Origin: a virus
Reading direction: 5' to 3' (one strand)
IMG/VR virus record: IMGVR_UViG_3300009181_000066
Span: 1-64,000 of that record
Length of the DNA stretch: 64,000 nucleotides
In this document: piece by piece, positions 14,701-63,430 of the stretch
Numbering within the stretch: the first letter of the stretch is position 1
Layout of the letters: the number at the start of each line of letters is the position of its first letter
Program-made: the position numbers and the translations under genes
The notes under the pieces: model-generated
Told to the model about the DNA's origin: nothing
The model's input: the letters and a program-made list of their open reading frames with translations, nothing else
The model's database searches: none

Positions 14701-14939
14701 TTGAACAAAACGACAATAAAGTAAGACAAGATTTCTTGGATTCAGTTAACCCAATCTTAGATTCAATCAGAAGAGATAGAGGTTTAATTGATTTCCGTGT
14801 GACAGTTTCAAACACACCTGAGGATCTTGACTCAAACACTCTTACAGGTAAAATATTCTTGAAACCTACAAGAGCACTTGAATTTATCGACATCGAGTTC
14901 ATCATTACTCCAACAGGGGCATCGTTTGATAACATCTAA
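11751..14939 (+). CDS. 18: contractile tail sheath protein (gp18-like)
   Basis: 1,062 aa, against 659 in T4. The N-terminus is typical: FVSPGVYTSERDLTFVAQS, then GIVGETLQGPAF and FDEFQVYFGG, then AAYIAKSYLSQSNQLFVTRV. The conserved C-terminal sheath domain includes AFPWFASAGYTRGIV, VRRLLLQARKLISAVAVR, LFEQND, IRRDRGLIDFRV and GKIFLKPTRALEFIDIEF. The extra 400 or so residues are Ser/Thr/Gly-rich domains inserted after the N-terminal part, so they probably face outward on the sheath surface. It would form the contractile outer tube. It is monocistronic, with its own late-type box and a strong hairpin after the stop. Confidence 0.93.
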   Translation: MASSNKVFVSPGVYTSERDLTFVAQSVGVTTLGIVGETLQGPAFEPIFIRNFDEFQVYFGGTSPEKFVNTQIPKYEAAYIAKSYLSQSNQLFVTRVLGLSGYDAGPSWSITTIGNINPSTLGATGNTGPVYVNFTGTTGNSGNVVITSVPAALSSVFYSTYSTDTNGSSTIDLDFRKSIVDQINLYSTSSSTSATTSYFWGSVSGGTLSDITGDSLNTVTTLSNVLSVDNVNLTNADLSSYKNDAWYYSLFNYASGDYSGFGFGASLSSISAITASVYSGSMAVYLTNYSGTAYSDYDNLVVATLRSRGLSEYNSQQKGPNYEVTGKTDVTLITTGSYSAVSENPLSTFVVSGVSSDGDTFNFETSLQSTDVNSISNVFGRSNFGKDKEEVPLFVEEVYYTLLLNGYRNGKIRGINGSLVSTLGARSLETDSIGFYLEQYQTPETPYIVSELRGNKTYKLFKFRLISDGNAANRLVKLSIGNVSFANGTFDLFIRDYFDTDRNVVVLESFTNCSMDPTLNNYVANKVGTANGEFALKSKFIMLEMSEEAPSDALPCGFEGYISREYDTATPPFVNYKTKYLKAGDVIYNPPFGSSSGGDNTVISSGENPRFAYLGISNITGYDSDFFQYKGKQLPANLGTDTVGIDWGYITKGFHFDSGATVVTITSGPTSGQSAYEVGVTSFRSEPSENDDAYYKLNTRKFTLLSYGGFDGWDIYREYRTNDDRFILGASGYKFGAEASITYPTATGWGAFKQISGPNQEVWGNTDYYAYLWGQKTLANPEAVNINVFVTPGIDYVNNSNLVEEAVTMIETDRADSIYICTTPDFDLFSPTLDPVDTNTIYPQEAVDNLESTGLDSNYTATYYPWVLTRDSVNNTQIYLPATAEVTRNLALTDNIAFPWFASAGYTRGIVNSIKARKTLTQEDRDTLYKGRINPIATFNDVGTVIWGNKTLQVRQSALDRINVRRLLLQARKLISAVAVRLLFEQNDNKVRQDFLDSVNPILDSIRRDRGLIDFRVTVSNTPEDLDSNTLTGKIFLKPTRALEFIDIEFIITPTGASFDNI

Positions 14940-42149: not shown

Positions 42150-42614
42150 ATGGCAGATGGAACGACATATGGTATTGTATTCCCATTTAGAGATAGTACA
42201 AAGGGTACCTATTTTAAATTATCAGAATTAACTTCAGAAGAAATTAGAAGTAATCTTCTTCATTTAATTTTAACAAGAAAAGGTAGTAGGTATTATTTAC
42301 CCGATTTTGGTACAAGAATATATGAGTTTATTTTTGAACCATTAGATGGACAAACATTTGAGTCTATAAGATCTGAAATTGAAGAACAAGTGGAGAAATA
42401 TATACCAAACGTAACAATAAATAATATTACAGTTGAGGCGTACACAGATAGTGAAGATGCGGCAGGGTCGCTAAATACGGATTTGTTAAACACATTTGAT
42501 ATATATAAAATACCAGGTTTAGCGGTTCAAGAGTATACAGCAAAATTAAAAATTGACTACACTGATGATAGTAATGGGTTTGGGGCAAATCAATTTATAA
42601 TAATAAACATTTAA
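42150..42614 (+). CDS. 25: baseplate wedge protein gp25
   Basis: 154 aa (T4 gp25 is 132 aa). The family core is clear: EEIRSNLLHLILTRKGSRYY, then PDFGTRIYEFIFEPLDGQTF, then IRSEIEEQVEKYIPNVTI. Gp25 joins the gp6 wedge to the inner tail and starts sheath polymerisation. It is 3 nt upstream of gp6, the same order as in many contractile systems. An acidic insert (about 98-115) is extra. Confidence 0.92.
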   Translation: MADGTTYGIVFPFRDSTKGTYFKLSELTSEEIRSNLLHLILTRKGSRYYLPDFGTRIYEFIFEPLDGQTFESIRSEIEEQVEKYIPNVTINNITVEAYTDSEDAAGSLNTDLLNTFDIYKIPGLAVQEYTAKLKIDYTDDSNGFGANQFIIINI

Positions 42615-42617
42615 AAA

Positions 42618-44453
42618 ATGGCAAAAAAAATATCATATACTGAAAGGGAATTTGTTGGATTAAGACAAGATTTAATTAATTTTACTCAGCAGTACTATCC
42701 AGAATTAGTACAAAATTTTAACGATGCTTCAATATTTTCGGTATTGATGGATTTAAATGCCGCCATTGGGGATAACCTACATTATCATATAGATAGAAGC
42801 ATCCAAGAAACGGTATTACAATATGCTCAGCAAAGATCTTCAATATATAATATAGCAAGAACGTATGGTTTAAAAATACCGGGTTATAGACCTTCGGTAA
42901 CTATTTTAAATCTTTCTATTACTGTTCCGGTATATAATGATTCGGATGATACAAGATATTTGGGGGTGTTAAGAGCTGGATCTCAGTTTTTCGGTGCAGG
43001 GACTGTATTTGAAAACCTTTATGATATTGATTTTTCTTCTGAATATAGTGCGTTAGGGTTTCAAAATAGAACAAAAATACCCCTTAAAAATTCATCCAAT
43101 ACTACATATGCATATACCATAACGAAACAAGAAGTGGTAGTAAATGGGACTACAAAAATATTTAAAAAACCAATAAACCCTGCAGATGTAGTTCCGTTTT
43201 ACAATGTATTTTTACCGGAAAGAAATGTTTTAAGTGTTACGTCAATAATACAAAAAGATGGGACTAATTACTCAACAGTTCCGAATTATGGTGAGTTTAT
43301 TACGTCAACGAACAAATGGTATGAGGTGGATGCTTTAGCGCAGGATACTATATTTATTGAAGATCCGACAAAACCTATTGATTCTACGGGAGTAAAAACA
43401 GGTAGGTATATAAAAACGGACACACGTTTTATTACTGAATATACGCCGGAAGGGTTTTTAAAAGTGCAATTTGGTGGAGGAACAACTACACCAAATGAGC
43501 AATTAAAAGAGTTTACTAAAGTTGGTATCCCATTAAGTGTACAAAATTTTCAAAATAACATTGGACTTGGATTAACCGTAAACCCAAATACTACTATTTT
43601 TATACAATATAGAGTTGGCGGTGGATTAGCGTCTAATGTTGGTGTTGGGGCAATAAACCAAGTTGGTACTATTGATTTTTCTGTAAATGGTCCGTCTAAC
43701 ACTGAAAATCAAAAAGTAATACAATCATTATCTGTCACAAATGTTACCGCAGCAATTGGTGGGTCAAATCCGCCGACCGTTGAAGAAGTACGTAATATGG
43801 TATCATTTAACTTTGCGGCACAAAAAAGAGCGGTCACTTTAAATGATTATAAATCAATTATAGATACGATGCCTGGTAAATTTGGTGCTCCATCTAAAGT
43901 TGCGATATCTGAAAAGGATAATAAAATTGCAGTTAAAGTTTTATCATTAGACACAAATAAAAAATTAACACAAACCGTTTCTAATAATTTAATTAGTAAT
44001 ATTGCGATATACCTCTCAAATTATAGAATGATAAATGATTATGTATCGGTTGAGGTGGCAAAAGTCATTGACTTGGAATTTGAATTTTCTGTTGTATTGG
44101 AGGGTGGGGTAAATCAAGGACAAGTAATAACTCAAATAATAAATTCTGTTTCAGATTATATGCAACCTAACAATAGAGAAATGGGACAGAACCTAAATGT
44201 TTCTGACATCAGACGATTAGTTCAGGATGTTTCCGGGGTATTGACACTTGCAAATTTAAACATATATAATAAAGTCGGTGGTCAGTACTCGTCATCAGAA
44301 ACATCCCAAAGATACATTGATCCTGAAACAAAACAAATAGAAATCATAGACGAGACAATATTTGCGGAACCCGATCAAATTTATCAAATAAGGTTTGATA
44401 ATGTTGATATTAAAGTAAGGGTTAAAAATCTAAATACTGTAGACTTCTCCTAA
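42618..44453 (+). CDS. 6: baseplate wedge protein gp6 (baseplate J-like)
   Basis: 611 aa (T4 gp6 is 660 aa). The N-terminal helical region with YPELVQNFNDASIFSVLMDL and AAIGDNLHYHIDRSIQE is typical, as is AARTYG-like NIARTYGLKIPGYRPSV. The baseplate-J part follows, with TVEEVRNMVSFNFAAQKRAV and LNDYKSIIDTMPGKFGAPSK, then a C-terminal dimerisation part (NVSDIRRLVQDVSGV). It forms the iris-like ring around the hub. It follows gp25 by 3 nt and precedes the 1,659-aa protein. Confidence 0.92.
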   Translation: MAKKISYTEREFVGLRQDLINFTQQYYPELVQNFNDASIFSVLMDLNAAIGDNLHYHIDRSIQETVLQYAQQRSSIYNIARTYGLKIPGYRPSVTILNLSITVPVYNDSDDTRYLGVLRAGSQFFGAGTVFENLYDIDFSSEYSALGFQNRTKIPLKNSSNTTYAYTITKQEVVVNGTTKIFKKPINPADVVPFYNVFLPERNVLSVTSIIQKDGTNYSTVPNYGEFITSTNKWYEVDALAQDTIFIEDPTKPIDSTGVKTGRYIKTDTRFITEYTPEGFLKVQFGGGTTTPNEQLKEFTKVGIPLSVQNFQNNIGLGLTVNPNTTIFIQYRVGGGLASNVGVGAINQVGTIDFSVNGPSNTENQKVIQSLSVTNVTAAIGGSNPPTVEEVRNMVSFNFAAQKRAVTLNDYKSIIDTMPGKFGAPSKVAISEKDNKIAVKVLSLDTNKKLTQTVSNNLISNIAIYLSNYRMINDYVSVEVAKVIDLEFEFSVVLEGGVNQGQVITQIINSVSDYMQPNNREMGQNLNVSDIRRLVQDVSGVLTLANLNIYNKVGGQYSSSETSQRYIDPETKQIEIIDETIFAEPDQIYQIRFDNVDIKVRVKNLNTVDFS

Positions 44454-44524: not shown

Positions 44525-47500
44525 ATGAGCAAAAGTTATAGGCTTAGAACCAAACCGGGAATAGACCAAAATATTAGAATAAACATAAATCAAGATTTTG
44601 ATTTTCTTGAAATTTTGTCTTTAAAATTAAGGCAAGAAGACGTTTACACAAGATTTTGTGCGGATTATGGGGTTGTTGCCGGTAGAGTTGTGGCTAATGG
44701 AGGTTTTGGTATACCTAATGCGAACGTATCTATCTTTGTGCCTTTAAGTGATATTGATGAAAATGATCCCGTAATATCCACTTTATATCCTTATAAATTT
44801 TTAGATCAAAAAAACGAAGATGGTTATAGATATAATCTTCTTCCTTATGTTAGTGAATATAACGGACACACACCAACAGGGACATTTCCATCAAGAGAAG
44901 ATGTTTTAACACGTAAGGAGGTTTTAGAATTATACGAAAAATATTATAAATACACCGTTAAAACAAATGATAGTGGTGATTTTATGATTGTTGGTGTACC
45001 ATTAGGGAATCAAAAAATTGTAATAGATTTAGACCTTTCAAATATGGGTTGTTTTTCTTTAAGACCTGCAGATTTAGTTAGAATGGGTAGAGGCGTATCC
45101 GAACAATTTGACGGGCAAAGATTTAAATCCTCTTCTGATTTAGGATCATTACCACAACTTTTTAACACTGCAAAAGATATTGACGTGACTTCATTTTGGG
45201 GTGAAGAAGATATTTGTACTGTTGGAATTACAAGGGTGGATTTTGATCTAAGAGACTACAATATTGATATTAAACCTCAGGCAACATTTATGGGGTCAAT
45301 CTTTTCAACTTCGGATGAGGATTATTTAAAAACTAATTGTAAACCTAAAAAAGATTCCGGTAATTTATGTGATTTAGTTGCAGGTCCTGGTAGGATTTTA
45401 GCGATTAGACAAACTAAAGATTATGATATTGATGGGAGACCCGTTTTAGAGCAATACAATTTAGAAAACGGAGGGAATGTAATTGACGAAAATGGGGCGT
45501 GGTTAGTAGAAGTACCAATGAACCTTGATTACGTGGTGACAAATGAATTTGGAGATCAAGTTTTATCAAATGATCCGTCCGTTGGAATACCAACAAAAGG
45601 AAAATATAGATTTAGAATACAATACCAAAATGAAGATGGTTTAAATAATGATATATTAAGGGCTGATTATTTAGTACCTAATGTAAAAGAATGGGGATGG
45701 ACTGGAATTAATCCTCCTGTTGGATCTACAGAACAATTAAAATCCTATGCGTTTAGTTTAGATTGGAATGATTATGGGGACACTACGACCGCTAATGGTA
45801 TACAAATGATAAATGAGGCGATAAAGTGTGAAGATAGGTTTTATGAGTTTAATTATAATAAAGTTTATACTATTGCAAATTTCTTTGATAGATGGAAATG
45901 GGGGTATAATAGAAGTAGACATTTAGGGATTAAAGAGATCACCGACAGAAGTTGTTCAACCACAAATAATCGTTTTCCGGTAAATGATGGGGTTAGGGAC
46001 TTTGATTTTAATTTTTTCCTTTTTAATTTAATGGTTACCATTTTTACACCTGTATTTTTGGTATTAGTGCCGGTTTTACACGTACTTGCTAAACTTTGGC
46101 CGGTAGTTAAATTTGCAATTGCGATTGCTCTACCTATATATATTGGTATTGTTGTTTTGAGTTGGGGCCTTTCCGCCGGGGCATCAGCACTCACTCCGTG
46201 GGTTGCTGCAGTATATTTACTTGTGGCAGCATTAACAGGAGCATTTCTAACATGGTATATCATTAAAGTTGCTCCATTTTTTCTTAAATTTAATTTTAAA
46301 GGACTCACATTACCTATGATATCTTATCCCGATTGCGAGGCGTGTGCTTGTGAAATCCCTGATTTGGGGATGGATGAGGTAGAAACTACAGGATTTGGTG
46401 GTAGTGGTACTAATCTAGGAATTAAAATTGGTAAATATGAAATAAATTCTAGAACAAGTGGAAGTATTTTATCAGACACAAATTCTAATTTATTTTGGGA
46501 TGGGATACCCAATACTAATTTATGTAATATAGATGATAGTGATAATCAAGTATTAGAAGGAGGTTATCCTACTTATTTTTGTTATATTGATCCGGATAGT
46601 TATGGTGGAAGTACTAATAAACAAAATAATAAATATCAAGCAGATAGTTATGGTATACGTTATGGGATTGCGGGTTATCCGACACCTCCAGAGATTGGTA
46701 TGCCTGTCGTCACTAAATTTTCTAACAAAAAATATATTCCAAATACGGACATCACTTATTCTCAGTCATTAAATTTAGCCAATTTAAGAGTTAGATATTT
46801 TGATAGTAGTGCACCGAATAGGATTAAAACAACAATAAATGCAACTAATCCACCTGTTTTTGATAATGTTTTAATATTGATGGTGGATCCTAATACGTAC
46901 TCAACAATACCTGCAGGAACACTATTAAGTTTTACTAATCCAAATTCAGTTATAGACACTAACCTTACAGGGGCAACAAATGAAAATCAGTTTGGGTCTA
47001 ATGCGGTGACAGGAACGTCATTTACCTCACTTACCTCAACCAATATAACATATATTGATCCTGTAACTTTAAACCCTCAGAGTGTTAACGTTTTTATATC
47101 AGGAAATACTACAGAAAAAGAGTACAAGTTTAAAACAGGTATTGAATATTTTCAAGTGGTCACTGGTATGACAATGTATGATGCAGATTTAATCACTTCA
47201 GGGATTAAAATAAGTACTAACCCTGACCCTGCAACTCATTACGACACTACGTCACTTTTAAGAAAATATATATTAAATAAATTACAGAATATAACATATG
47301 AAGATAATTCTAATGTGGGTGATAGTGGAGATATAAGGACAGAATTAATTAACCCATTAACTGTAAATGGGGATAGTTGGCAAAACCAAGAACTGATTTT
47401 TTTGGTTAGGGGTGTTGACCCTTTTAGTGATAAACAAAACATTGAGTATGATTTGTCATTGATTTTTGGTTATGGACTTGGATCGGGACCTAAAGTAAGT

Positions 47501-49504
47501 GGGGAATATTATCTTAATATTCCGATACAATCTAATTCAGGTTCGGGAACTTGGTATAATGATAAAAAAACACCTGAACCGCACAATTTACCTTATAGTA
47601 CGTCGAAGTTGTATCATAGACCATTTAATTTTCAAGTTGATGGTACACAATTTAGTTCAGTAACTTCAACATCTATTAGATATTATTCTTCATTAGATAA
47701 GTCAATACCCGCAGGATATGCACCTAATGGGGGTAATAATATTGGATTCTACACGAATGGGGGTATAATAAATGATAACGGTAACTCAAACCAAAAAATA
47801 AGATTCTATTCTTCATCATATCAGGGAATAGTTGAGGGAGGGGCTTTGATGGCTAGTACCCAACCAACACCAACAACAATTAATGCTCTTAGTAATTATA
47901 ATGGTAGAATATATAGTCCGGCGTATCATATAACTACTGGGTCGTTAAGCTTTACAATACCTTCAGGTGCAAACCCTAAATTAGTTTTAAGATCAGATAG
48001 GTTACCAACATCTGATAAAACGCAATCATATGGGTCTATGTCTATGTTATTACATCAAAATGATAATTTTGCAATATATACTTATAATGAAGGTGCGGGG
48101 ATGTCATCATTTGCCATGCAACTTACGGATACATCTAATAACGCAAAAGATTTTGGAGGAGATGTTTCTGGACAAACAAGTAGCGTACTTTCAACATTTG
48201 ATTGTGAGGGTATGGTTCCGTTAAAATGTTATAGAAGTGTTCCGGCAACCAATAGTTTTGTGGTTGATCCTTTATGTGGAGATAACCAAGACCCTACTAG
48301 AGTAAAATCTGGTTGTTATTTGTTTATACAAAAACCATATATTAAAGGAATACTTAAAGATTATGAAAATTTTGCAGAATGGAAGGCTAGGTTTAGAATG
48401 ATGTATGGTGCATGTCAAGGAGTATTTTCACACGTTTTTCAAAACAACTGGATTAATGGGTCATTATATATGTTCTCATTTAAAAAACAAACAATTTTCT
48501 CAAAAAGTGGTGAACCTAAAAAATATAAATATTGTGGCACATATGAAAGTGGTTATAGACCAGGACAGGGACCTATTTTTTATACTTCAGGAAGTACAAA
48601 CTCATTCTTTTATCGTTCAACACCTTATAATGGCACAGAGTTTGTCGGTCAAAAACCTTTAGAGTCGTCATATTTAAATTCTCAACCCGTACCTGTTGAT
48701 TTTGGAGGAACTAATGATGAAAATATATTGTTCCCAACCACTATTATGGATTTAGGACCTAGAGATGAGTTTACAAAAGAAATATGTTTTAACCCTCAAT
48801 TTGAAGGATATTTAGTAGATACTGTAAGATCTACCTCATATAATGATACGTCTGATCTTTTACAGCTATTTATTGTTTCTCGTTTAATAAATACCAACTT
48901 TTTAAGTCAAATTGTTGGTTATGGTGATGCATCTATAAATAGATTATTTTCTAGAACTGAAGATAGAATGGATGGTGATGTGGTACAAATGTTTAGTATT
49001 AATTCTGAGTATGGTGTGAATGGTTTCAGTGAAGATGAATATGATGGTGTTGGTGATATTTATATTGCAACAACAGGTCCGGCGACTATGGGTGTTTTCT
49101 TTTCATCAACAACAGCAAATAGACAATTATTATCACCTGGAAAAACAAGTTATACGACGTTTGGTTATCCTAAAACACAAGTTGTTCCTATGTATAAATG
49201 GGAAAGTAAAACTCAAAATACTATTTTTGGTAGTGATAAAAATGATTGGTATACACAAGGTCCTTTTTATAAACAACCATACCAATCTATGGATTTTACG
49301 CAAACAGATTATTTTAAACCAGGAAATGGAGAAAAATTAGGATACATTTATAGTAGAGATTCTTTATTGAATATTACCACAGGATGGCCAAATGGTCAAA
49401 ATACGAGATATGTGGTTGGTGCTCCTTATCATTTTTATTTTGGATTAAAAAAAGGACAAAGTGCGGTAAATAGGTACATAACTAAATATATTTTTAATCA
49501 GTAG
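44525..49504 (+). CDS. very large baseplate/tail protein with hydrophobic, membrane-like segments
   Basis: 1,659 aa. It stands in the position of T4 gp7 (after gp6) but I cannot prove homology. Residues about 50-75 (GRVVANGGFGIPNANVSIFV) resemble a carboxypeptidase-regulatory-like beta domain, resumed by DSGDFMIVGVPLGNQKIVID. Residues about 491-592 contain three long hydrophobic segments: FLFNLMVTIFTPVFLVLV, FAIAIALPIYIGIVVLSW and AAVYLLVAALTGAFLTWYII. They are directly followed by a Cys cluster (DCEACACEIPD). The rest is Ser/Thr/Asn/Gly-rich beta structure. Membrane-like helices are unexpected in a wedge protein, so it may insert into the host envelope on injection, or those helices may pack inside the virion. 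Confidence 0.55.
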   Translation: MSKSYRLRTKPGIDQNIRININQDFDFLEILSLKLRQEDVYTRFCADYGVVAGRVVANGGFGIPNANVSIFVPLSDIDENDPVISTLYPYKFLDQKNEDGYRYNLLPYVSEYNGHTPTGTFPSREDVLTRKEVLELYEKYYKYTVKTNDSGDFMIVGVPLGNQKIVIDLDLSNMGCFSLRPADLVRMGRGVSEQFDGQRFKSSSDLGSLPQLFNTAKDIDVTSFWGEEDICTVGITRVDFDLRDYNIDIKPQATFMGSIFSTSDEDYLKTNCKPKKDSGNLCDLVAGPGRILAIRQTKDYDIDGRPVLEQYNLENGGNVIDENGAWLVEVPMNLDYVVTNEFGDQVLSNDPSVGIPTKGKYRFRIQYQNEDGLNNDILRADYLVPNVKEWGWTGINPPVGSTEQLKSYAFSLDWNDYGDTTTANGIQMINEAIKCEDRFYEFNYNKVYTIANFFDRWKWGYNRSRHLGIKEITDRSCSTTNNRFPVNDGVRDFDFNFFLFNLMVTIFTPVFLVLVPVLHVLAKLWPVVKFAIAIALPIYIGIVVLSWGLSAGASALTPWVAAVYLLVAALTGAFLTWYIIKVAPFFLKFNFKGLTLPMISYPDCEACACEIPDLGMDEVETTGFGGSGTNLGIKIGKYEINSRTSGSILSDTNSNLFWDGIPNTNLCNIDDSDNQVLEGGYPTYFCYIDPDSYGGSTNKQNNKYQADSYGIRYGIAGYPTPPEIGMPVVTKFSNKKYIPNTDITYSQSLNLANLRVRYFDSSAPNRIKTTINATNPPVFDNVLILMVDPNTYSTIPAGTLLSFTNPNSVIDTNLTGATNENQFGSNAVTGTSFTSLTSTNITYIDPVTLNPQSVNVFISGNTTEKEYKFKTGIEYFQVVTGMTMYDADLITSGIKISTNPDPATHYDTTSLLRKYILNKLQNITYEDNSNVGDSGDIRTELINPLTVNGDSWQNQELIFLVRGVDPFSDKQNIEYDLSLIFGYGLGSGPKVSGEYYLNIPIQSNSGSGTWYNDKKTPEPHNLPYSTSKLYHRPFNFQVDGTQFSSVTSTSIRYYSSLDKSIPAGYAPNGGNNIGFYTNGGIINDNGNSNQKIRFYSSSYQGIVEGGALMASTQPTPTTINALSNYNGRIYSPAYHITTGSLSFTIPSGANPKLVLRSDRLPTSDKTQSYGSMSMLLHQNDNFAIYTYNEGAGMSSFAMQLTDTSNNAKDFGGDVSGQTSSVLSTFDCEGMVPLKCYRSVPATNSFVVDPLCGDNQDPTRVKSGCYLFIQKPYIKGILKDYENFAEWKARFRMMYGACQGVFSHVFQNNWINGSLYMFSFKKQTIFSKSGEPKKYKYCGTYESGYRPGQGPIFYTSGSTNSFFYRSTPYNGTEFVGQKPLESSYLNSQPVPVDFGGTNDENILFPTTIMDLGPRDEFTKEICFNPQFEGYLVDTVRSTSYNDTSDLLQLFIVSRLINTNFLSQIVGYGDASINRLFSRTEDRMDGDVVQMFSINSEYGVNGFSEDEYDGVGDIYIATTGPATMGVFFSSTTANRQLLSPGKTSYTTFGYPKTQVVPMYKWESKTQNTIFGSDKNDWYTQGPFYKQPYQSMDFTQTDYFKPGNGEKLGYIYSRDSLLNITTGWPNGQNTRYVVGAPYHFYFGLKKGQSAVNRYITKYIFNQ

Positions 49505-53214: not shown

Positions 53215-54123
53215 ATGGCATTAGGAACTTACGGAATAAATAGACCTGCTGACGTATCACCTGAGGATGTTGAAATACTTTTACATTACACAGCTTCAAG
53301 GGATGTTACAAACAACTTTGTTTTAAAAAAATTAAACGCTTCAAATATTTTAACACCGTATTTTCATAATGGTGAAACCGGAGGTAATGCAAATGTTGAA
53401 ATTTTAGGCGGTCTTTATAATTTAAAATTACCAGCATCTGAATTCACTAGTTTAGGGATTTATACTCTATATATAAGACCTGCCGAAATAAGAACTACAA
53501 TATTGGATTGTGGGGTGTTATCATCAATACCGAATGTTAAAGGAATTGTTATAGACATAAATCAAGTACCCTCTCAATATAGAAATAAGTTTGTAAATCA
53601 AGGACTTGTTGGTTTTAGAGTTGAATATTTAAATTCTGATGGAACAAAAATCCCTAATTTTTATAGAATTGTAACATCATCTTTCTTTTGTGAACCTGTA
53701 GTTTCTAATCAAACAAACACATCACAAAAAGCGATTAGATATAGATACGTGAATGGAAGTACCGATTTAATATTTTGTACATTATCACCTTCTTCTTCAC
53801 CTACAAATAAACCTGATGTGATACCTTTTATTGGCCAACCAAATCAGAGTATTATTGTGACTAATACTTTTTTTAACCCAATAACTATAGATATTCAGAT
53901 GGCTGAACACGATATTGATACTTTAGCAATTGCCCTTTATGGTAATCAAACTAAAAGTGTTGATGATGGTATCTACACTCTTTATGATAGTGCTGGTAAT
54001 ATCTATAAACAATATAACTTGTTTGAAATTAGAGATAACTTTAATGAGTTATTATATGAAGTTAGACAAGACAGAGGAACTAATATAGACTTCAGTAAAA
54101 ACTTCACAAACATTATTAGTTAA
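53215..54123 (+). CDS. putative tail structural protein
   Basis: 302 aa. It starts MALGTYGINRPADVSPEDVE and continues with HYTASRDVTNNFVLKKLN, then an alternation of beta strands with TLYIRPAEIRTTILDCGVLS and VKGIVIDINQVPSQYRNKFV. The C-terminal helix region LFEIRDNFNELLYEVRQDRG looks like an attachment element. I recognise no family. It heads a transcription unit with its own late-type box, and its stop overlaps the next ATG by one base (TAATG). Confidence 0.5.
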   Translation: MALGTYGINRPADVSPEDVEILLHYTASRDVTNNFVLKKLNASNILTPYFHNGETGGNANVEILGGLYNLKLPASEFTSLGIYTLYIRPAEIRTTILDCGVLSSIPNVKGIVIDINQVPSQYRNKFVNQGLVGFRVEYLNSDGTKIPNFYRIVTSSFFCEPVVSNQTNTSQKAIRYRYVNGSTDLIFCTLSPSSSPTNKPDVIPFIGQPNQSIIVTNTFFNPITIDIQMAEHDIDTLAIALYGNQTKSVDDGIYTLYDSAGNIYKQYNLFEIRDNFNELLYEVRQDRGTNIDFSKNFTNIIS

Positions 54124-57095
54124 TGGCAAAGAAAAAATATTTTTATCCACCTGTACCACCCTCAGGATCTCAGACATTTTCTAACGAATTAGTCGGGTTA
54201 CAACTCGTGCAAGGAGGTGGACTTACTATGGGTAATTTTGAATTTACAAGTGCTATATTTGAAAAAAGTGATAGGAAGTTTGATACGGGGGTTTTTTCTC
54301 AACCATACAATCTATCAAATTTAAACATTGCTAGTATTGAACAAAGTAAGTTATTAGTTCAAAAAAATTTCCAAGTATATCCTAATTTTGATATTTCACA
54401 AATAACTAGTTTTTCATTATATGGGTCTTTACAAAAAAGATTAGAAACGTCAATAACTAAAGTTATTAATTATTTTCCTGCATCTATTTTGGTTAGAAAA
54501 AATATAGGAACAGGGTATAGTGCGTTAACGGCAAATAATATTCAATATAGTAATATTGACAATGAAACCACATTTACAATAAACGTTAAATATTTAACAA
54601 ACCCATTTGATATTGATTATACTGTAAACGCATCTCAAAACATACGATTTAGTCCAATTAAATTAAGTGAATATAGGGATTTAACATCTAATTATAAAAA
54701 ATATGCATTATACGTTGAAAGTCCTAACAATCAAGAGTATAAAATTATTTATTTTGAACCGTCGGCGACATTTAGTGAGGGGAATTTAACATTTATTGTT
54801 GAAGGGAATCCATTTTCAGGACAAACGGCATTTACTGAAACATTAATTATAAAACCAAATAATGAAAATACTGAAAAAATTTTTAATGAAAGTTTTGATG
54901 AGGTAGAGGATTTTATTTTAAATAGACAGGTGTTTCCTAAATACACCGCAACGTTTCAATATCCTGATTATGATGTTGACGGAACATATTCATTAAATGT
55001 AAAAAGTGTGACTTGGCCGTTAGGGGATGAATGGAATTTAGATATACAGTCAGTGTCATTTGAGAATTATTTAACGGAAATACAAAACATTGCGGTACTA
55101 CTTGATAGGTATAAAACCAATCTAATATCTAGGTTTTTAACTACCGGGTCTTTAAAAGATTTTGACACTCCTGAACAAAAAATGGAAAAGGTGTTACAAA
55201 TTTATGGTAGAAGTTTTGATGAGACCAAAAAATTTATAGATTCATTGGCTTATATGAATTCTGTTAATTATATTGTAGGTAATGATATACCCTCACAATT
55301 ATTAATAAATTTAGCACAAACAATCGGATTTAATAGTAACGTTTCACCAATTACGAATGATCAGTTTTTAGGTACCGTGTTTTCAACGGAAAATACTTCT
55401 GATTATGAAGGGATGTCAAAACCTATGACACCTACTGAGTTAAACTACCAGTTTTATAGGAATTTAATATTAAATGCCGCTTATCTATTTAAATCTAAAG
55501 GTACCCGAAGATCAATTGAATTTATATTAAGAATGGTTGGAGCCCCCGACGCATTAATTGAATTTAATGAAAATATTTATTTGGCCGATGGTACTATAAA
55601 TTTTGATGATTTTAAAGATCAATATATTTGTATATCGGGAAGTACGTTATTAGTTGAAAATACAGTATTAGATCCTACGGTGACTTTTAGTATACAGGGG
55701 ACAATGTATACCGGTTTTACGGTTTCAAATACTGTTCAGACAGTGACCGCAACCTTTGATGATTTTCCGATATATGAAAGTGGATACCCAAAAACGGTTA
55801 AAGATAAACCGGATTACTTTTTCCAAAAAGGTGCTGGATGGTTTGAACAAACACCTGAGCATACGTCAGAAGAAGTTATTGATAATGAAAATTCAGTATT
55901 TAGTGGAAATACCGTTTCTTTGGTTACTAAATTTAAACCTTTTACGTATGGTCAAGATTGGCTTGATAGATTTAGAAAGTTTCCATTTATGACAAACGTT
56001 GGTTACAATTTAGTTAGAACGGTGGATAACACAAAATCTTGGCCAACTAACCAAGTGGGTCTTAGAAAAAACGGTTCAGTAACTGCTCCAACATATTATA
56101 GAATTGAAGATGATAGATTAGCGATTAATGTTAAAAACATTGATCTTTATTTAAATATGGGTCAGGGAATTACTTATGACGTTTGGGAACAATCCGTATT
56201 GTATAACTACCCAATACCAAGTACAGGGTTAACTGCTCCATATCCGAGTCCTGGTGATACTGATTGGACTGTCATAAACCCTAAACCCGATCAAAAAACG
56301 TTTTTTGAATTTGCTCAAACATTTTATAATAATTTAATTAACGTTAGAAACAGACAATACATAAGTGACGGTAAAACAGGAGGGTATCCTGCATTACAAT
56401 CAATTTTTTGGAAGTACATTCAAAGTGAACAAGCTATGAATATACCATCAAATAAATTTACTTATCAAAAAATGATTGATTTTACATTAGCACTTGGTGA
56501 TTATTGGGTGAGACTTGTAGAACAATTTGTTCCTGCCACTACTATTTGGAATACGGGTCAAAAAATGGATAATAGTGTTTTCCATAGACAAAAGTTTGTT
56601 TGGAGAAGACAAAGGGGGTGTAGTTTTGTCCCTGTTAATTGTATTCCTTGTACGTTTAATGGTCAACCATTTGGTTATGATTGTATTGATCAAACGTTAA
56701 TCTGTAGTTTAGATATTGGACAGAATTATGGAGCCACTACGTTAAGTGAAGCGTTAAATAATTTGATTAGTGAACAAGGATATATTCAAAATCAGTGTGA
56801 CTTAAACGGAATGAAAAGTTATTGGTATATTGATGTAAGACTTGATGATGTAACTCTAATTCAAGAACAATTTTATACTGGTTATGGGAGTGTGGACTAT
56901 CCAACACAGTCAACTATTTTTAATTCAATAAACGAAAAACTTGAAGGTTTATATGTTTATGGGTTAAACTATTATTTTGCGGGTAGCTCATTAGTCATTA
57001 GTAATAGTAGTTGTTACGATGATTTTACAAATAAAAAACTGTATTTAAATATTGGGATTATGATTGATATAAACTGTAATAATGACGGAGAATAA
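54123..57095 (+). CDS. large baseplate protein with a tail-protein-I-like segment
   Basis: 990 aa. Around residues 345-480 there are helices with LQIYGRSFDETKKFIDSLAY, SQLLINLAQTIGFNS, and then the conserved-looking YLFKSKGTRRSIEFILRMVG ending in APDALIEFNE. This resembles the segment in P2 gpI-type tail proteins, where a K-G-T-x-x-(S/A)-(I/L) helix precedes a G-(A/V)-P turn. Such proteins link wedge and fibres. A second large beta-rich part follows. The C-terminus has a Cys-rich patch (GCSFVPVNCIPCTFNG) that could be disulphide- or metal-stabilised. One-base overlaps link it to both neighbours. Confidence 0.55.
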   Translation: MAKKKYFYPPVPPSGSQTFSNELVGLQLVQGGGLTMGNFEFTSAIFEKSDRKFDTGVFSQPYNLSNLNIASIEQSKLLVQKNFQVYPNFDISQITSFSLYGSLQKRLETSITKVINYFPASILVRKNIGTGYSALTANNIQYSNIDNETTFTINVKYLTNPFDIDYTVNASQNIRFSPIKLSEYRDLTSNYKKYALYVESPNNQEYKIIYFEPSATFSEGNLTFIVEGNPFSGQTAFTETLIIKPNNENTEKIFNESFDEVEDFILNRQVFPKYTATFQYPDYDVDGTYSLNVKSVTWPLGDEWNLDIQSVSFENYLTEIQNIAVLLDRYKTNLISRFLTTGSLKDFDTPEQKMEKVLQIYGRSFDETKKFIDSLAYMNSVNYIVGNDIPSQLLINLAQTIGFNSNVSPITNDQFLGTVFSTENTSDYEGMSKPMTPTELNYQFYRNLILNAAYLFKSKGTRRSIEFILRMVGAPDALIEFNENIYLADGTINFDDFKDQYICISGSTLLVENTVLDPTVTFSIQGTMYTGFTVSNTVQTVTATFDDFPIYESGYPKTVKDKPDYFFQKGAGWFEQTPEHTSEEVIDNENSVFSGNTVSLVTKFKPFTYGQDWLDRFRKFPFMTNVGYNLVRTVDNTKSWPTNQVGLRKNGSVTAPTYYRIEDDRLAINVKNIDLYLNMGQGITYDVWEQSVLYNYPIPSTGLTAPYPSPGDTDWTVINPKPDQKTFFEFAQTFYNNLINVRNRQYISDGKTGGYPALQSIFWKYIQSEQAMNIPSNKFTYQKMIDFTLALGDYWVRLVEQFVPATTIWNTGQKMDNSVFHRQKFVWRRQRGCSFVPVNCIPCTFNGQPFGYDCIDQTLICSLDIGQNYGATTLSEALNNLISEQGYIQNQCDLNGMKSYWYIDVRLDDVTLIQEQFYTGYGSVDYPTQSTIFNSINEKLEGLYVYGLNYYFAGSSLVISNSSCYDDFTNKKLYLNIGIMIDINCNNDGE

Positions 57096-59785
57096 TGGCT
57101 TGTGTTTCAGGTTTAACAAATGGGGTATTTAGTTACGTTGATTGCTGTGGGATATTACAGACCGGAGTATCTTTAGGTCAAAGCATATGTTTAGACGAAG
57201 CATTTACTGGTACTTCATTTGGTGTTTATATTGCTTCAGGACAAACTTGTACTCAAAACTGTAACCAGGGTACGTTAAGTTATAGTTTTCAAGTTACGGG
57301 TGTTTGTGATACATCTTACGGGCAGATAATATTTACACCTTCTGGTGGTATACCTCCATATACGATAGATCCTGTAACACCTACCGGAACTACATTAACT
57401 GCACAAACAAGTAGTGGGGATATCACCTTTACTGGTTTAACAGGTGGGACTTATGTATTCCGTCTAAATGATTCACAAGGGTTACAAAACAATGAATTAT
57501 ATATTAATACAATAATATCAAATTGTTTTGAAGCTAACGTATATGGGGTTTCAGGATCAACTTGTGGTTTAAGTAATGGATATATTAACATAACCGCAAC
57601 GACAAGCGCGTCTCCATATACTATTATTGTTTATAAAGACGGAGGTGTATTTAATGTATCAACAGAAGCGACATTACCTGTAACATATTCTAATTTACCT
57701 TCAGGAATTTATTATGCAACGGTTTTTGACTATGGGTCAGTGACGGCAAATACTGAAAATTTTGTAATAGATGAAAGTGTTGGGGTTGATTTTGGTTTTT
57801 GGAAAGTTAACACATCGACTTGTGTTATTGATAAAGGTAAACTTGCGGTAACGGGTTTAACAGGTACTGGTCCGTATACTTTTTTATGGAGTAATAATGA
57901 AACAACCCAATTAGTTACGGGTCTTACACAAGGTACATATAGTGTTACTGTGACGGATGCGTTAGGATGTTCAACCACAAAGTCTGAACTTATTGGAACT
58001 GCAGATCCTATAGGTCTTGGGTTTTTGACTGCAGTTAATCCGTCTTGTTTCTCAAATGATGGGTCTTTAACTTTTACAATAACAGGAGGTACGGTTCCTT
58101 TTTATTATTCTGCTTCTACCTATGAAGTGGGGTATACATTATCTGATACGTTTACAATATCTAATTTGGCGGGTGGGGCGTACCAAGTATTGGTAAGAGA
58201 TGCTAATTTTTGTGAAGTTATTTTAAATGGTACCATAAATACCGTTAATGGTTTTAATGTTGTTGAAATTGCAACTACACAATCATCTTGTAATCAGTCT
58301 AGTGGGAAGATTGGAGTAACTATAGAAGGTGCGAACAATTTTTATACGTACGCAATTTCAGGATTAACCACAAATTACACCAATGGAATAACCACTCAAA
58401 GTCAAACACATAACTTTACTAATTTATCAAACGACACTTATTTATTAGTTATATCAGGATCGGGTACAAATTGTAGTTATAGTGAATTTGTTACAATCGC
58501 TTCAGTTGATAAGTTTCAAGTAAATTATACTGCAACAACCGCAAGTTGTGGGTTAAATAACGGGGTTATTAGTGTTGAGGTAGGGACTGGTTATACGGGA
58601 GTATTAGATTATGTTTTAAGTGACGGACAATCAATTATAGATACGCCATCTACCGCTTACACATTTAGTAATTTAGTTGAGGGTCAATATACGTTAAGTG
58701 TTACCGATAATGAAAACTGTACGGTATCTAAAGATTTTGAAATAACAACAACAGGGGAATTAGCCTTTATGGTTAATGCTGTTGATTGTACTGGGGTAAA
58801 TGATGGGTCGGCAAGTGTTTTAATAAATAAAGGGGAACCTACATTTGCATATGAATGGTCCGACAATGTGCCAGGAAACCCAACAGGGTCTACGGTTACG
58901 GGTTTATCGGGGGGTACATATTCGGTAATAGTTACGGATAGTAGTGGGTGTAGTAATAAACAAATATTTGATATATTGTGTGGAAATAGTAATATTGTTT
59001 CTTATCAAATTGTCAATCTTTGTGTTAATGAGTTTAATACCCAATCAGGAAATAAAAGAGGTTTTTCTGAAATGTTAAATGAAGGGTTTTTAGATTTAAC
59101 AAATGAATACACAAATTGTATTTTAAGTTCCGCAACATTTAATTGTAATATAGACATTAATGGAACCGCTTATACCCAATCTTTTTACACAACGAATGAA
59201 TTTAGCGATGTCCCTAGTGATGCTTTATGGCAAAGTACTATTGAAGGTATATTATCATCAATAACTGAAATAGGTTCTTACAATGTTAATTTACTTAATA
59301 ACACATTACAAATTAATTCTAATTGTGATGGGGATAGTGATCCTCTTGGGGGTAAACCAATTACCATTGAATTAGAGATTGATTATACATTAAACTGTGA
59401 GTCTTCAGGGGATACAATGTGTTTTAATTTTTCAAGTAGTACTTATGTATCAAATGTTACAGCATCGCCGGAAGGTATAAATAATAATAGACCATACTAT
59501 ACATTTCCAAGAGGTGGAATTACTTGTTATGTGTATTGGGATGATGTATCTAATGTTTGGGTATTTTCTAAAACTTTAGGTGGAGATATAAATAATAGTT
59601 TTTCGACACTTGATAATTTTTATAATCCAAATCCGGTAAGTAATATGACATATACATGGCAAGACGGACCTGAAAGTGGAACATTTAAAATGAACACATC
59701 TACAAGTGGAATGTGTCCATATAAACAATTCCAAAACCTGACAAATTTTGAATTTATGACAGGTGTACCATATGAATTTCAATAA
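57095..59785 (+). CDS. tail adhesin with seven SprB-type repeats
   Basis: 896 aa. The Cys-rich N-terminal 60 residues (SYVDCCGILQTG) are followed by seven Ig-like units of roughly 70-85 aa, to about residue 625. The third is closest to the SprB repeat consensus: GPYTFLWSNNETTQLVTGLT then QGTYSVTVTDALGC. The seventh has YSVIVTDSSGCSNK. Most units start with a Cys and end in D-x-x-x-C. SprB repeats are known from flavobacterial cell-surface gliding adhesins. The C-terminal 150 residues (GGITCYVYWDDVSNVWVFSK then TLGG) form a separate domain also found in the gene at 63476. It is probably a receptor-binding or decoration fibre that borrowed a host surface fold. Confidence 0.75.
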   Translation: MACVSGLTNGVFSYVDCCGILQTGVSLGQSICLDEAFTGTSFGVYIASGQTCTQNCNQGTLSYSFQVTGVCDTSYGQIIFTPSGGIPPYTIDPVTPTGTTLTAQTSSGDITFTGLTGGTYVFRLNDSQGLQNNELYINTIISNCFEANVYGVSGSTCGLSNGYINITATTSASPYTIIVYKDGGVFNVSTEATLPVTYSNLPSGIYYATVFDYGSVTANTENFVIDESVGVDFGFWKVNTSTCVIDKGKLAVTGLTGTGPYTFLWSNNETTQLVTGLTQGTYSVTVTDALGCSTTKSELIGTADPIGLGFLTAVNPSCFSNDGSLTFTITGGTVPFYYSASTYEVGYTLSDTFTISNLAGGAYQVLVRDANFCEVILNGTINTVNGFNVVEIATTQSSCNQSSGKIGVTIEGANNFYTYAISGLTTNYTNGITTQSQTHNFTNLSNDTYLLVISGSGTNCSYSEFVTIASVDKFQVNYTATTASCGLNNGVISVEVGTGYTGVLDYVLSDGQSIIDTPSTAYTFSNLVEGQYTLSVTDNENCTVSKDFEITTTGELAFMVNAVDCTGVNDGSASVLINKGEPTFAYEWSDNVPGNPTGSTVTGLSGGTYSVIVTDSSGCSNKQIFDILCGNSNIVSYQIVNLCVNEFNTQSGNKRGFSEMLNEGFLDLTNEYTNCILSSATFNCNIDINGTAYTQSFYTTNEFSDVPSDALWQSTIEGILSSITEIGSYNVNLLNNTLQINSNCDGDSDPLGGKPITIELEIDYTLNCESSGDTMCFNFSSSTYVSNVTASPEGINNNRPYYTFPRGGITCYVYWDDVSNVWVFSKTLGGDINNSFSTLDNFYNPNPVSNMTYTWQDGPESGTFKMNTSTSGMCPYKQFQNLTNFEFMTGVPYEFQ

Positions 59786-59804: not shown

Positions 59805-60500
59805 ATGGCAACTTTAACATCAATATCTTTAGTAACCCCATCAGCTATTACGGAAACTTCACAAATTCACGTTGTAATTACGGGGGACACGACTCAAGGT
59901 AATCCTGATGGGTCTTCATATAAAGCAAATCTTTCAGATTTAAGAACGGTTTTTTTAGATACATTTATAACAGGGTTTACCTACAATAACGCTAACACAC
60001 TAACAATTGCAAGAAATCAAGGGCAACCTAATTTGACTGCAACAATCAACACGATGACTGGTCTAACAATAAATGGGGCATTGTCTGCTACTACGATTTA
60101 TTTAAGTGGTCAACCTGTTTCAACAACAACTTGGGTTACAAGAACAGATGTGAGTTCTCAAATATATAATATTCCTTCCGTAAATTATGGAATAATAAAT
60201 AGATACACATTAAATGTGTATTCTGAATATGTATTACCTGCAACATGTGAAATAGGTGATGTTATAGAAATTATTGAGGATAAAGCAGGAAGTTCTAAAA
60301 CCAGAGTTAGAGCAAATACAGGTCAAACAATTAGGGTGAGTAGTTATGGAACGACAGGGACTGCGGGATATTTTGATACCGTAAATACTGACAATGTTGC
60401 AATAAAGCTTGTTTGTATTACTGCAAATTCTAAATGGGCGGTAGTTTCATATTTTTCCGATTTTAATAATGGGTCTGGATCAGTACCAACAATAGTGTAA
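59805..60500 (+). CDS. short tail fibre, N-terminal attachment domain shared with 61116
   Basis: 231 aa. The N-terminus (TSQIHVVITGDTTQGNPDGS then SYKANLSDLR) matches that of the 326-aa protein at 61116, so it is probably a common anchor to the baseplate. A beta-helix-like repetitive part follows (ATINTMTGLTINGALSATTI). The C-terminal domain (YTLNVYSEYVLPATCEIGDV, then KWAVVSYFSD) resembles heads of small phage fibres. It has no hydrophobic signal. The next gene begins on the base after its stop. Confidence 0.65.
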   Translation: MATLTSISLVTPSAITETSQIHVVITGDTTQGNPDGSSYKANLSDLRTVFLDTFITGFTYNNANTLTIARNQGQPNLTATINTMTGLTINGALSATTIYLSGQPVSTTTWVTRTDVSSQIYNIPSVNYGIINRYTLNVYSEYVLPATCEIGDVIEIIEDKAGSSKTRVRANTGQTIRVSSYGTTGTAGYFDTVNTDNVAIKLVCITANSKWAVVSYFSDFNNGSGSVPTIV

Positions 60501-60794
60501 ATGGCTAGTGTTTTAAACATATCAAACATATCAGGAGGCACACCACCTTATAGTTTTTATGTTTGTGATGAAAACGGAAACAACTGTTCTTTATTAGGAA
60601 CTACCGCAAGTGCATATACATTAAATGCCTTTTATTCAACTGCAAACACATTACTAATAAAAGTGATAGATAGTAACTCTTGTCAATTTTTCACTTTAAT
60701 TTCTTGTCCTATTGATAGTTGTATAATTTTAACTGAAGACTTAGATAAAATCACGACAGAAGATGGGGACTTCATTGTATTTTGTGATTTTTAA
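60501..60794 (+). CDS. one-domain SprB-like protein
   Basis: 97 aa. It is a single Ig-like unit: ISNISGGTPPYSFYVCDENG, then a strand with TLLIKVIDSNSCQFFTLISC, and a short acidic tail (TEDLDKITTEDGDF). It has the G-G-x-P-P-Y-x-F and V-x-D-x-x-x-C elements of the repeats in the 896-aa adhesin. It is clearly related to the next gene. It may be a detachable tip or decoration that sits on a neighbouring fibre. Confidence 0.6.
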   Translation: MASVLNISNISGGTPPYSFYVCDENGNNCSLLGTTASAYTLNAFYSTANTLLIKVIDSNSCQFFTLISCPIDSCIILTEDLDKITTEDGDFIVFCDF

Positions 60795-60805: not shown

Positions 60806-61093
60806 ATGATAGTACAAATCACAGGATCTACGAGCGGACAATCACCATTTGATGTTTTTTTGTGTGATTCAACAAACACCTCCTGTTTTTATGTTTCAGG
60901 GATTACATATCTAACACCCGTTGTTGTTTTTGATACAAATAACTATTTTCCAAATGAAAACGTTCTATATTTAAAAGTTATTGACTCTCTCGGTTGTACA
61001 TTTATTGAAAAGTTAGATTGTGGGGAAGGAAAAATGTACCAAGACGGAATATATGTCAAATTTATGGACGGAGTTGGTTATTATTTCCAATAA
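60806..61093 (+). CDS. one-domain SprB-like protein, paralogue of 60501
   Basis: 95 aa. It aligns along its length with the preceding protein: SGQSPFDVFLCDSTNTSC corresponds to GTPPYSFYVCDENGNNC, and VLYLKVIDSLGCTFIEKLDC to TLLIKVIDSNSCQFFTLISC. The C-terminal 25 residues differ (MYQDGIYVKFMDGVGYYFQ). It looks like a tandem duplication that has diverged, probably at the receptor-facing or fibre-contact tail. Confidence 0.6.
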   Translation: MIVQITGSTSGQSPFDVFLCDSTNTSCFYVSGITYLTPVVVFDTNNYFPNENVLYLKVIDSLGCTFIEKLDCGEGKMYQDGIYVKFMDGVGYYFQ

Positions 61094-61115: not shown

Positions 61116-62096
61116 ATGCCAACTTATCAGTTTCTTACGGATAGATCATTAGCTCAATCTACGGCAATAACGCCGACAACTATTATACATATTGTAACCA
61201 CTGCGGATACAACCCAAAGTGTTTATGGGTCATCATATAAGGCAACAATACAACAAGTTTCAGATGCTATCTTAACAGGGTCTACGAACATATATAATTC
61301 AGATGGTACTTTAACAGGGAATAGAAATGTTAATTTTACAGGAAGTAGATTACAATTTTCAGGAACAAATAGTAGTACAACTATAGGTTTAACATTAAGG
61401 GCTAGTTCTGGTTCTGGAAACCGTTTTGCTAAATTAAGTGCAGTAAATGGGTCACTACAAAATAACATAGATGTGACCATTGCGGGTACATCAATTAACT
61501 CTTCGGATACTGGATATACAAACTCAGTCAGTACAGATTCGGTAGGTGTTAATATTACCGCTTCTGATTATACAGGGTACACAAATACAATAGATCTCAA
61601 TTCGGGTGGAATAATGATTAATTCAGAATATTATTTACCGCCTACGGATGGAACTACAGGGCAAATTATGACAACAGATGGTAGCGGAACTACTAGTTGG
61701 CAAAGTATGTATGGGTATCAATACTATAGTGCGGTAACCATTACAAGTGCTCAAACACTCTCAATTGGGTCATCACCTGTTGAAATCTTACCAGCACCTG
61801 GTGCTAACAAATATTATGATTTTAAAGTATTTTTTGAATACATATTTAATACTACCTCATATGTCAGTACAGGTAAAATGGAATTACACGATAGTACTGC
61901 AAAACGAGTGTCAAATCGATTTGATTTTAATGGTCAATTATCCAATAATATATTGATTAGTGATATGAACGCGGCGAGTGAATTGATGCCAATCAATAGT
62001 AAACTTGAGTTTACAACATCTGATGGGACTAACCCAACACTTGGTGATAGTTCATTTAAAGTAAAAATATATTATAATATTATTGATTTTGGTTAA
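61116..62096 (+). CDS. tail fibre protein, N-terminal domain shared with 59805
   Basis: 326 aa. The N-terminus (TTIIHIVTTADTTQSVYGS then SYKATIQQVSD) is paralogous to that of the 231-aa fibre. The centre is a Ser/Thr/Asn/Gly-rich repetitive stalk, followed by DGTTGQIMTTDGSGTTSWQS, a motif common just before the head domain of phage fibres. The C-terminal 110 residues (YYDFKVFFEYIFNTTSYVST and following strands) form a compact beta domain, likely the receptor-binding head. It is transcribed from its own late-type box. Confidence 0.7.
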   Translation: MPTYQFLTDRSLAQSTAITPTTIIHIVTTADTTQSVYGSSYKATIQQVSDAILTGSTNIYNSDGTLTGNRNVNFTGSRLQFSGTNSSTTIGLTLRASSGSGNRFAKLSAVNGSLQNNIDVTIAGTSINSSDTGYTNSVSTDSVGVNITASDYTGYTNTIDLNSGGIMINSEYYLPPTDGTTGQIMTTDGSGTTSWQSMYGYQYYSAVTITSAQTLSIGSSPVEILPAPGANKYYDFKVFFEYIFNTTSYVSTGKMELHDSTAKRVSNRFDFNGQLSNNILISDMNAASELMPINSKLEFTTSDGTNPTLGDSSFKVKIYYNIIDFG

Positions 62097-62185: not shown

Positions 62186-63430
62186 ATGAATATGAAAATA
62201 TTTATTCAAATTGCGTCATATAGAGATCCTGAATTAATACATACAATTAAATCTTGTTTAGAAAACGCCAAAAATCCGCAAAATTTAATTTTTGGTATTG
62301 CAAGACAATATCACAAAGATGATAAATTTGATGATCTTTCTGAATATGAAAATGACGAAAGGTTTAGAATATTAAATATCCCATACCAAGAGTCAAAAGG
62401 AGTATGTTGGGCAAGAAACCAAGTCCAACAACTGTATAAAGATGAAGAGTACACCCTTCAAATTGACTCTCATATGAGATTTGAAAAAGATTGGGACGAC
62501 ACTCTTATTGAAATGTTAAAACAACTACAAGAGTTAGGGATTCCGAAACCTTTATTAACGGGGTATGTGTCGTCTTATAATCCAAAAAATGATCCACAAG
62601 AAAGAGTAAGGGTGCCTTGGAGGATGGTATTTGATAAATTTATTCCTGAAGGTGCCATCTTTTTTTTACCTGAAACAATACCAAATTGGCAAGATTTAGA
62701 ATTACCCGTCCCGGCTAGATTTTATTCTGCCCATTTTTGTTTCACGTTAGGTGAGTTTTCAAAAGAAGTGCAACACAATCCTGATTTTTATTTTCACGGT
62801 GAGGAAATATCCATTACTGTAAGGGCATTTACAAACGGTTATGATTTATTTCATCCCCATAAAGTTATTATTTGGCATGAATATACAAGAGAAGGTAGGA
62901 CAAAACAATGGGATGATGATAAAGAATGGTACAAGAAAAATGAAAGTTCACATCTTTTAAATAAAAAACTTTTTGGAATGGATGGGTTGGATCAAGAAGG
63001 TCATGATGGGAAATACGGTCTTGGTAATGTTAGATCTTTAAGAGATTATGAAGAATATGCCGGGATTTTATTTTCTAAAAGATCCGTTCAAAACCACACA
63101 CTACAAAAAAATTACCCACCAAATCCAAATTATTCAACTGAAACAGAATTTTTAGAATCTTTTACTAATATTTTCGACTATGAAATAAAATTAAATAAAG
63201 AAGATTTTAAAGAATCTGACTATGATTTTTGGGCGGTTATTTTCCATAATAATGATGGTGAAGAGGTTTTTAGAAAAGATGCTGACACAACCGAAATACA
63301 AATATTATTAAATATGGATCATTTAAAAATAAGAAGATCGTTTTTATCATATCAAAAACCAAAAAGTTGGACTGTGTGGTCACATAGTATTTCTAAAGGG
63401 TGGGATAAAGAAATAAAAGGAATAATATAA
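62186..63430 (+). CDS. GT60-type (GlcNAc) glycosyltransferase
   Basis: 414 aa; an in-frame ATG at 62192 is a possible alternative start. The order of motifs is that of the GT60 family (Pfam 'GlcNAc'): IFIQIASYRDPELIHTIKSC, then FGIARQ, GVCWARNQVQ, and LQIDSHMRFEKDWDDTLIEM with D94-S-H96 as the metal-binding DxH/DxD. FYSAHFCFTLGEF then FYFHGEEISITVRAFTNGYD and KVIIWHEY follow. These enzymes add GlcNAc to hydroxyproline or other hydroxyl groups in eukaryotes and occur in bacterial surface loci. In a tail-fibre cluster it may glycosylate fibres or alter host glycans. There is no signal peptide, so it should act in the cytoplasm. The last 100 residues are a separate beta-rich tail. Confidence 0.82.
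   Translation: MNMKIFIQIASYRDPELIHTIKSCLENAKNPQNLIFGIARQYHKDDKFDDLSEYENDERFRILNIPYQESKGVCWARNQVQQLYKDEEYTLQIDSHMRFEKDWDDTLIEMLKQLQELGIPKPLLTGYVSSYNPKNDPQERVRVPWRMVFDKFIPEGAIFFLPETIPNWQDLELPVPARFYSAHFCFTLGEFSKEVQHNPDFYFHGEEISITVRAFTNGYDLFHPHKVIIWHEYTREGRTKQWDDDKEWYKKNESSHLLNKKLFGMDGLDQEGHDGKYGLGNVRSLRDYEEYAGILFSKRSVQNHTLQKNYPPNPNYSTETEFLESFTNIFDYEIKLNKEDFKESDYDFWAVIFHNNDGEEVFRKDADTTEIQILLNMDHLKIRRSFLSYQKPKSWTVWSHSISKGWDKEIKGII

Follow-up and report, generated by a model that had tools for sequence, protein, structure and literature searches.

A phage tail-cluster protein with seven SprB-type repeats and an exchangeable C-terminal tip

The S1 gene and its surroundings

The window, the whole stretch of 64,000 nucleotides that was analysed, is part of a 70,275-base IMG/VR virus record and encodes a contractile-tail phage, with a tail sheath, gp25- and gp6-like baseplate wedge proteins, a UvsX-like recombinase, a DnaB helicase and a ribonucleotide reductase. 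The gene considered here, S1, is an open reading frame whose ATG start overlaps the stop of the preceding gene. A sequence-only reading of the window had located it in a phage tail cluster, which is correct, and had described seven Ig-like units bounded by cysteines, which we find at residues 71-144, 157-243, 243-318, 318-399, 399-485, 485-565 and 565-629; across 58 complete relatives, conservation of the cysteines that delimit them is 95-100%. Outside that description, S1 also has an N-terminal segment (residues 1-66), a non-repeat domain (630-768), which we call the collar, and a variable tip. The features, with repeat units delimited by profile matches, are:

11751-14939, tail sheath
42150-44453, baseplate wedge homologues
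54123..57095, plus strand, 990-aa protein directly upstream of S1, with overlapping start and stop; matched in 74 of 74 related loci
57095..59785, plus strand, S1, 896 aa, probable tail adhesin with SprB repeats (open reading frame, Pfam SprB match, IMG/VR relatives)
57095..57292, plus strand, N-terminal segment of S1 (residues 1-66), cysteine-rich (C3, C17, C18, C32, C52, C56)
57305..57526, plus strand, SprB-type unit 1 (residues 71-144), 17.8 bits with the cellular SprB-unit profile
57563..57823, plus strand, SprB-type unit 2 (157-243), cellular profile 18.7 bits
57800..58018, plus strand, SprB-type unit 3 (236-308), cellular profile 56.8 bits
58025..58264, plus strand, SprB-type unit 4 (311-390), cellular profile 50.1 bits, Pfam SprB alone 28.5 bits
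58268..58525, plus strand, SprB-type unit 5 (392-477), cellular profile 20.6 bits, Pfam 21.2 bits
58526..58765, plus strand, SprB-type unit 6 (478-557), cellular profile 47.8 bits
58766..58981, plus strand, SprB-type unit 7 (558-629), cellular profile 57.3 bits, Pfam 23.2 bits
58982..59398, plus strand, conserved non-repeat collar, 139 aa (630-768), alpha-beta fold in the AF2 model
59377..59785, plus strand, exchangeable tip (residues ~761-896), from comparison with near-identical phages
59805..60500, plus strand, 231-aa short-fibre-like protein, absent from the related locus L010 and within the segment swapped together with the S1 tip
60501..60794, plus strand, 97-aa protein, weakly matching a single SprB-like Ig unit (E about 0.001 with phage and cellular unit profiles)
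60806..61093, plus strand, 95-aa protein like its 97-aa neighbour, with a very weak match to a single SprB-like unit
61116..62096, plus strand, 326-aa fibre-like protein whose N-terminus is kept and C-terminus swapped in comparison with L010

The neighbourhood is conserved on the upstream side, where the genes for the 302-, 376- and 990-aa proteins are matched in all 74 related loci; the downstream genes come and go, the 231-aa protein being matched in 44 of the 74.

Several small proteins of this region, 73-101 aa in length (at 60501-60794 and 60806-61093, at 8579-8800 of L008 and in a small ORF of L032), resemble single, very divergent SprB-type units; the 97-aa protein has no Pfam match. 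The peptides with which they end (YKQFQ...FEF..G.PY.FQ and ILTED..ITTEDG.FIVF) are also seen at the C-termini of S1 proteins from other phages, as is MSGYTFEINQP, as if short terminal peptides had been exchanged between genes. The adhesin cluster further includes a glycosyltransferase (phrog_24687, 62186-63430), whose closest phage relatives, at 42-43%, are from Xanthomonas and Stenotrophomonas jumbo phages. At positions 63476-65071 of the record, the tail cluster encodes a 531-aa protein in which Pro and Thr alternate in long repeats (PTPTPT...), of the kind that serve as linkers in the tips of S1 relatives. Beyond the window, at 65365-66990 of the record (L008 8865-10490), lies a second protein with SprB repeats (541 aa), matched over two stretches with 44.9 bits. 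Such two-repeat proteins recur in related phages, and in a 291-kb relative a protein of about 820 aa is a third candidate. SprB repeats are present in every one of the 16 related records examined.

At its N-terminus, the cysteines of residues 1-66 are 95-98% conserved in the 58 relatives, and this segment is a candidate virion anchor. The AlphaFold model of S1 is a chain of beta-sandwich domains (pLDDT 71, about 70-90 across most of the array). The collar, modelled by AF2 with a pLDDT of 82.7 and a pTM of 0.73, matches no known family, and PDB structures match it only weakly, with a best E of 0.03; the four highest-ranking are phage tail or baseplate chains. When profiles were compared with hhalign, the collar matched, co-terminally, the final ~110 residues of the 990-aa protein; the probability was 54% (pairwise E 1e-4), compared with 0.4-1% for control profiles. 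The C-terminus of the 990-aa protein may thus be a paralogous attachment domain, and the resemblance hints that the two proteins belong to one assembly.

Relationship to the SprB repeat family

In Pfam searches, S1 matched the SprB family (PF13573) with 53.3 bits (E 2e-14), well above the curated cut-off of 28 bits, and this was the sole family to exceed its own cut-off. Generic families all stayed below theirs (K319L-like PKD 18.3, Y_Y_Y 15.7 and Ig_J 11.5 bits), as the sequence-only reading would have it in assigning the repeats to SprB rather than to generic phage Ig folds. PF13573 was also matched in all 24 aligned members of the S1 family (E <= 0.01). It models just 37 residues, the first half of an SprB unit, and we therefore built a profile of full-length units from 145 cellular SprB units of Bacteroidota genomes (L051, L060-L073). 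This profile matched all seven units of S1, with 17.8 to 57.3 bits, and scored 228.7 bits in total, compared to at most 6.7 in 500 shuffles; its units were gathered using the phage-unit profile, so that it is not fully independent, whereas Pfam is. A comparison of the phage-unit and cellular-unit profiles by hhalign gave a probability of 99.6%. The third unit was fairly singled out earlier as nearly matching the SprB consensus, being one of the two best by the full-length profile (56.8 bits), yet unit 7 equals it (57.3 bits), and with units scored singly PF13573 favours unit 4 (28.5 bits) over unit 3 (18.8 bits).

S1 and the family have in common the unit length, the GGTxPYxYxWS and VTDxxGC motifs and a cysteine pair, which occupies homologous positions and is present in 97/100% of phage units 3-7 and 86/88% of the 145 cellular units. 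Where present, the pair probably forms a disulphide. S1 differs from the cellular PF13573 proteins in being phage-encoded and in having exactly seven, mutually divergent, units. By these comparisons, we regard its repeats as true members of the SprB family.

That they are generic phage Ig-like domains merely resembling SprB is very improbable. Foldseek searches with the array do yield many Ig/FN3 arrays, as this explanation would have it, but the best structural matches in the PDB are to GhpA, from a Bacteroidota bacterium, and we reject it on the evidence of the Pfam result, the full-unit profile and the conserved cysteine pair. GhpA is the grappling-hook protein of Aureispira (9flp, 9flw, 9fly), which aligns at 14-18% identity; unlike S1, it is a bacterial protein of several thousand residues and not a phage adsorption protein. 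The nearest viral structure match, A0A6J5LD72 of an uncultured Caudovirales phage (33% identity over 730 columns), is an S1-like protein. Its UniProt name, 'SprB repeat', is an automatic label, and tip exchange is not described for it within the literature we could search. The presence of the SprB domain in phages is thus not new. In the open-access literature, the terms 'SprB repeat' and 'phage' occur together in one paper, which concerns polymorphic toxins.

S1 has the repeat type in common with SprB, RemA and RemZ, which serve Flavobacterium johnsoniae as gliding and T9SS adhesins. As a protein, S1 is nevertheless not an SprB-type gliding adhesin, because it is phage-encoded and has no T9SS sorting domain: a Pfam search found no C-terminal domain of the Por_Secre_tail type in S1 at E<=1, and one relative had a weak match to a T9SS sorting domain (E 9e-4). 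It is also much shorter than SprB, and nothing in the analysis links it to gliding. The repeats themselves are widespread in T9SS-secreted Bacteroidota proteins other than SprB (PMC7073777). We sampled 198 genomes from the phylum to which the Flavobacteriaceae MAG L051 belongs and saw them in 50, whereas 14 control genomes had none. A search for prophage or host copies in bacterial genomes returned just one distant cellular SprB-repeat protein, from a Flavobacteriaceae MAG. Among GenBank phage records, SprB repeats were seen only in uncultured phages, and they are absent from two isolated relatives by baseplate, Flavobacterium phage immuto and Microcystis phage Mel-JY01, so that SprB stalks are not a general trait of flavophages.

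A fixed array and an exchangeable tip

Relatives of S1 in IMG/VR align across residues 1-768, mostly at roughly 46-95% identity, with one distant group at 36%. The sequence-only reading had asked for repeat numbers to be compared among related phages, and we find no variation: all 58 complete relatives have seven units of near-constant lengths, with 87 residues in unit 2 and 82 in unit 4 throughout. Further, in 22,908 of 23,142 comparisons a unit is most similar to the one that occupies the same position in the other phage. Judged by this constancy of number and lengths and by the orthology by position, the array is an old, fixed structure which does not gain and lose repeats.

Past residue 768, the same 58 proteins continue for 2 to 474 aa, and 18 of them have essentially no tip. 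One tip (L117) carries a Fib_succ_major domain (66.7 bits); others contain long linkers of Pro and Thr, and several unrelated domains that match no family. Searches of related loci for relatives of the window's tip domain found allelic copies only.

L010 is 96-100% identical to the window over most of their common DNA, the stalk included, and so is L009 across S1 and the region that follows it. Aligned to L010, the window is fully identical within the collar up to base 59,376, and identity drops sharply from 59,377 on. The two tips are only 57% identical in amino acid sequence, the last 21 residues of the window's tip have no counterpart in L010, and the L009 tip is the same as that of L010. 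The fibre-like gene downstream shows a second replacement: the C-terminal part of 61116-62096 has 52-54% DNA identity to L010 between flanks of about 98%, and the corresponding ORF (L010 13243-14391) has only the first ~43 aa in common with the 326-aa protein. Identity to L010 is also reduced (79-91%) at 47500-48750, inside a 1659-aa tail-cluster protein. Exchange is further evident between other relatives, where the stalks are 95% identical and the tips differ (L016/L125), the stalks are 97% and the tips 61% identical (L035/L038), or, conversely, the stalks are 68% and the tips 92% identical (L016/L017). Two more contigs share the window's stalk at full identity and stop at residues 674 and 751, the latter no more than about 30 bases from the breakpoint, which is what assembly breaks at a locally variable site would produce.

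We considered a diversity-generating retroelement as the driver of this variation and rejected it: recombination is the likely source, since none of 22 related records, most of them probably incomplete, contained a reverse transcriptase (RVT_1). S1 thereby resembles modular phage tail fibres, in which a conserved shaft carries a tip that is swapped between close relatives; it is encoded in the tail gene cluster and has a conserved shaft with a recombining C-terminal tip, and it differs from them in that the shaft is made of SprB-type repeats followed by a 139-aa collar of no known family.

Variation of the tip would also be explained if S1 were a capsid or neck decoration fibre, similar to Hoc or to whiskers, whose Ig array provides weak, non-specific adhesion. 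Phage Ig-like domains are frequent on capsids and necks, and the PDB matches of the S1 profile include decoration and neck-whisker proteins. We nevertheless consider this unlikely, because S1 lies downstream of the baseplate wedge genes and overlaps the preceding gene of the tail cluster, in a conserved order, and because allelic replacement of the tip is typical of receptor-binding proteins.

Host and probable role of S1

The host probably belongs to the Bacteroidota, and within these to the Flavobacteriia, as the repeats had already been taken to indicate. The phylum is supported by the ribonucleotide reductase NrdA, which is nearest to those of Cellulophaga and Tenacibaculum phages (39-42%), and by the lack of Shine-Dalgarno use, a motif of this kind preceding 3 of 33 genes (9%) against a background of 7.4%. 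Bacteroidota are expected to make little use of such sites. The wedge protein is matched about equally well by proteins of Flavobacterium phage immuto, of Microcystis phage Mel-JY01 and of an uncultured huge phage, and the Microcystis label weakens the case, so that the class of the host, like its exact identity, is something we infer.

Taken together, the findings make it fairly probable that S1, in a T4-like lineage of Bacteroidota phages, serves as a tail-associated adhesin that binds the receptor and has a fixed SprB stalk, a collar and an exchangeable tip. The earlier proposals of a tail adhesin and of a domain adopted as a modular stalk hold up in this form, the latter as a stalk plus an exchangeable tip. 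S1 would presumably be part of the virion, and its seven repeats would make up a rod whose length is fixed, at about 25-30 nm for a unit size of about 4 nm, and which the conserved collar would cap. The C-terminal tip, which is exchanged near the junction of collar and tip, probably by recombination, would recognize the host surface together with the neighboring short fibre-like proteins, likewise swapped. The rod would then be a spacer and not the determinant of specificity, and the phage would have reused a domain that its host group employs for long cell-surface proteins. The exchange of tips suggests that the choice of receptor resides in them; yet the tip is not the sole receptor-binding part, given the relatives that essentially lack one, and in these the repeats, the collar or separate small proteins must bind.

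The repeats had also been read as a sign that the phage mimics, binds or uses the gliding apparatus of its host. This idea is a legitimate one, because gliding proteins of flavobacteria have been put forward as receptors for phages (PMC7345892; PMC13288928). It would have the S1 repeats engage SprB-like filaments or gliding adhesins, by homotypic docking or mimicry, with the gliding machinery as receptor, and it draws on the repeats being true SprB homologues and on the existence of tipless relatives. We hold it to be quite improbable, for it is the tip that varies between near-identical phages while the array stays constant, and SprB repeats are a general surface module of Bacteroidota. In addition, RemZ, the best match of the S1 profile among PDB sequences (28.5 bits), is almost equalled by the Ig domain of a phage decoration protein (27.4 bits). 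Slightly less probable again is an extension by which the repeats dock on SprB-type filaments of the host and the virion is carried along the cell to its injection site by gliding or T9SS adhesins as they move. Nothing in the S1 sequence supports a gliding role over that of a spacer, and the findings suggest a fixed stalk with a changeable recognition tip rather than gliding mimicry.

S1 would thus be a case in which a phage lineage makes the shaft of its adhesin from a surface-protein module of its probable host phylum. The label 'SprB repeat' should accordingly not be taken as evidence of gliding, but the repeat type, together with missing Shine-Dalgarno sites, can help to assign hosts to such phages. 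Finally, phages that are near-identical across many kilobases and differ mainly in the tips of their adhesins constitute a natural experiment, which makes the host specificity of uncultured Bacteroidota phages testable.
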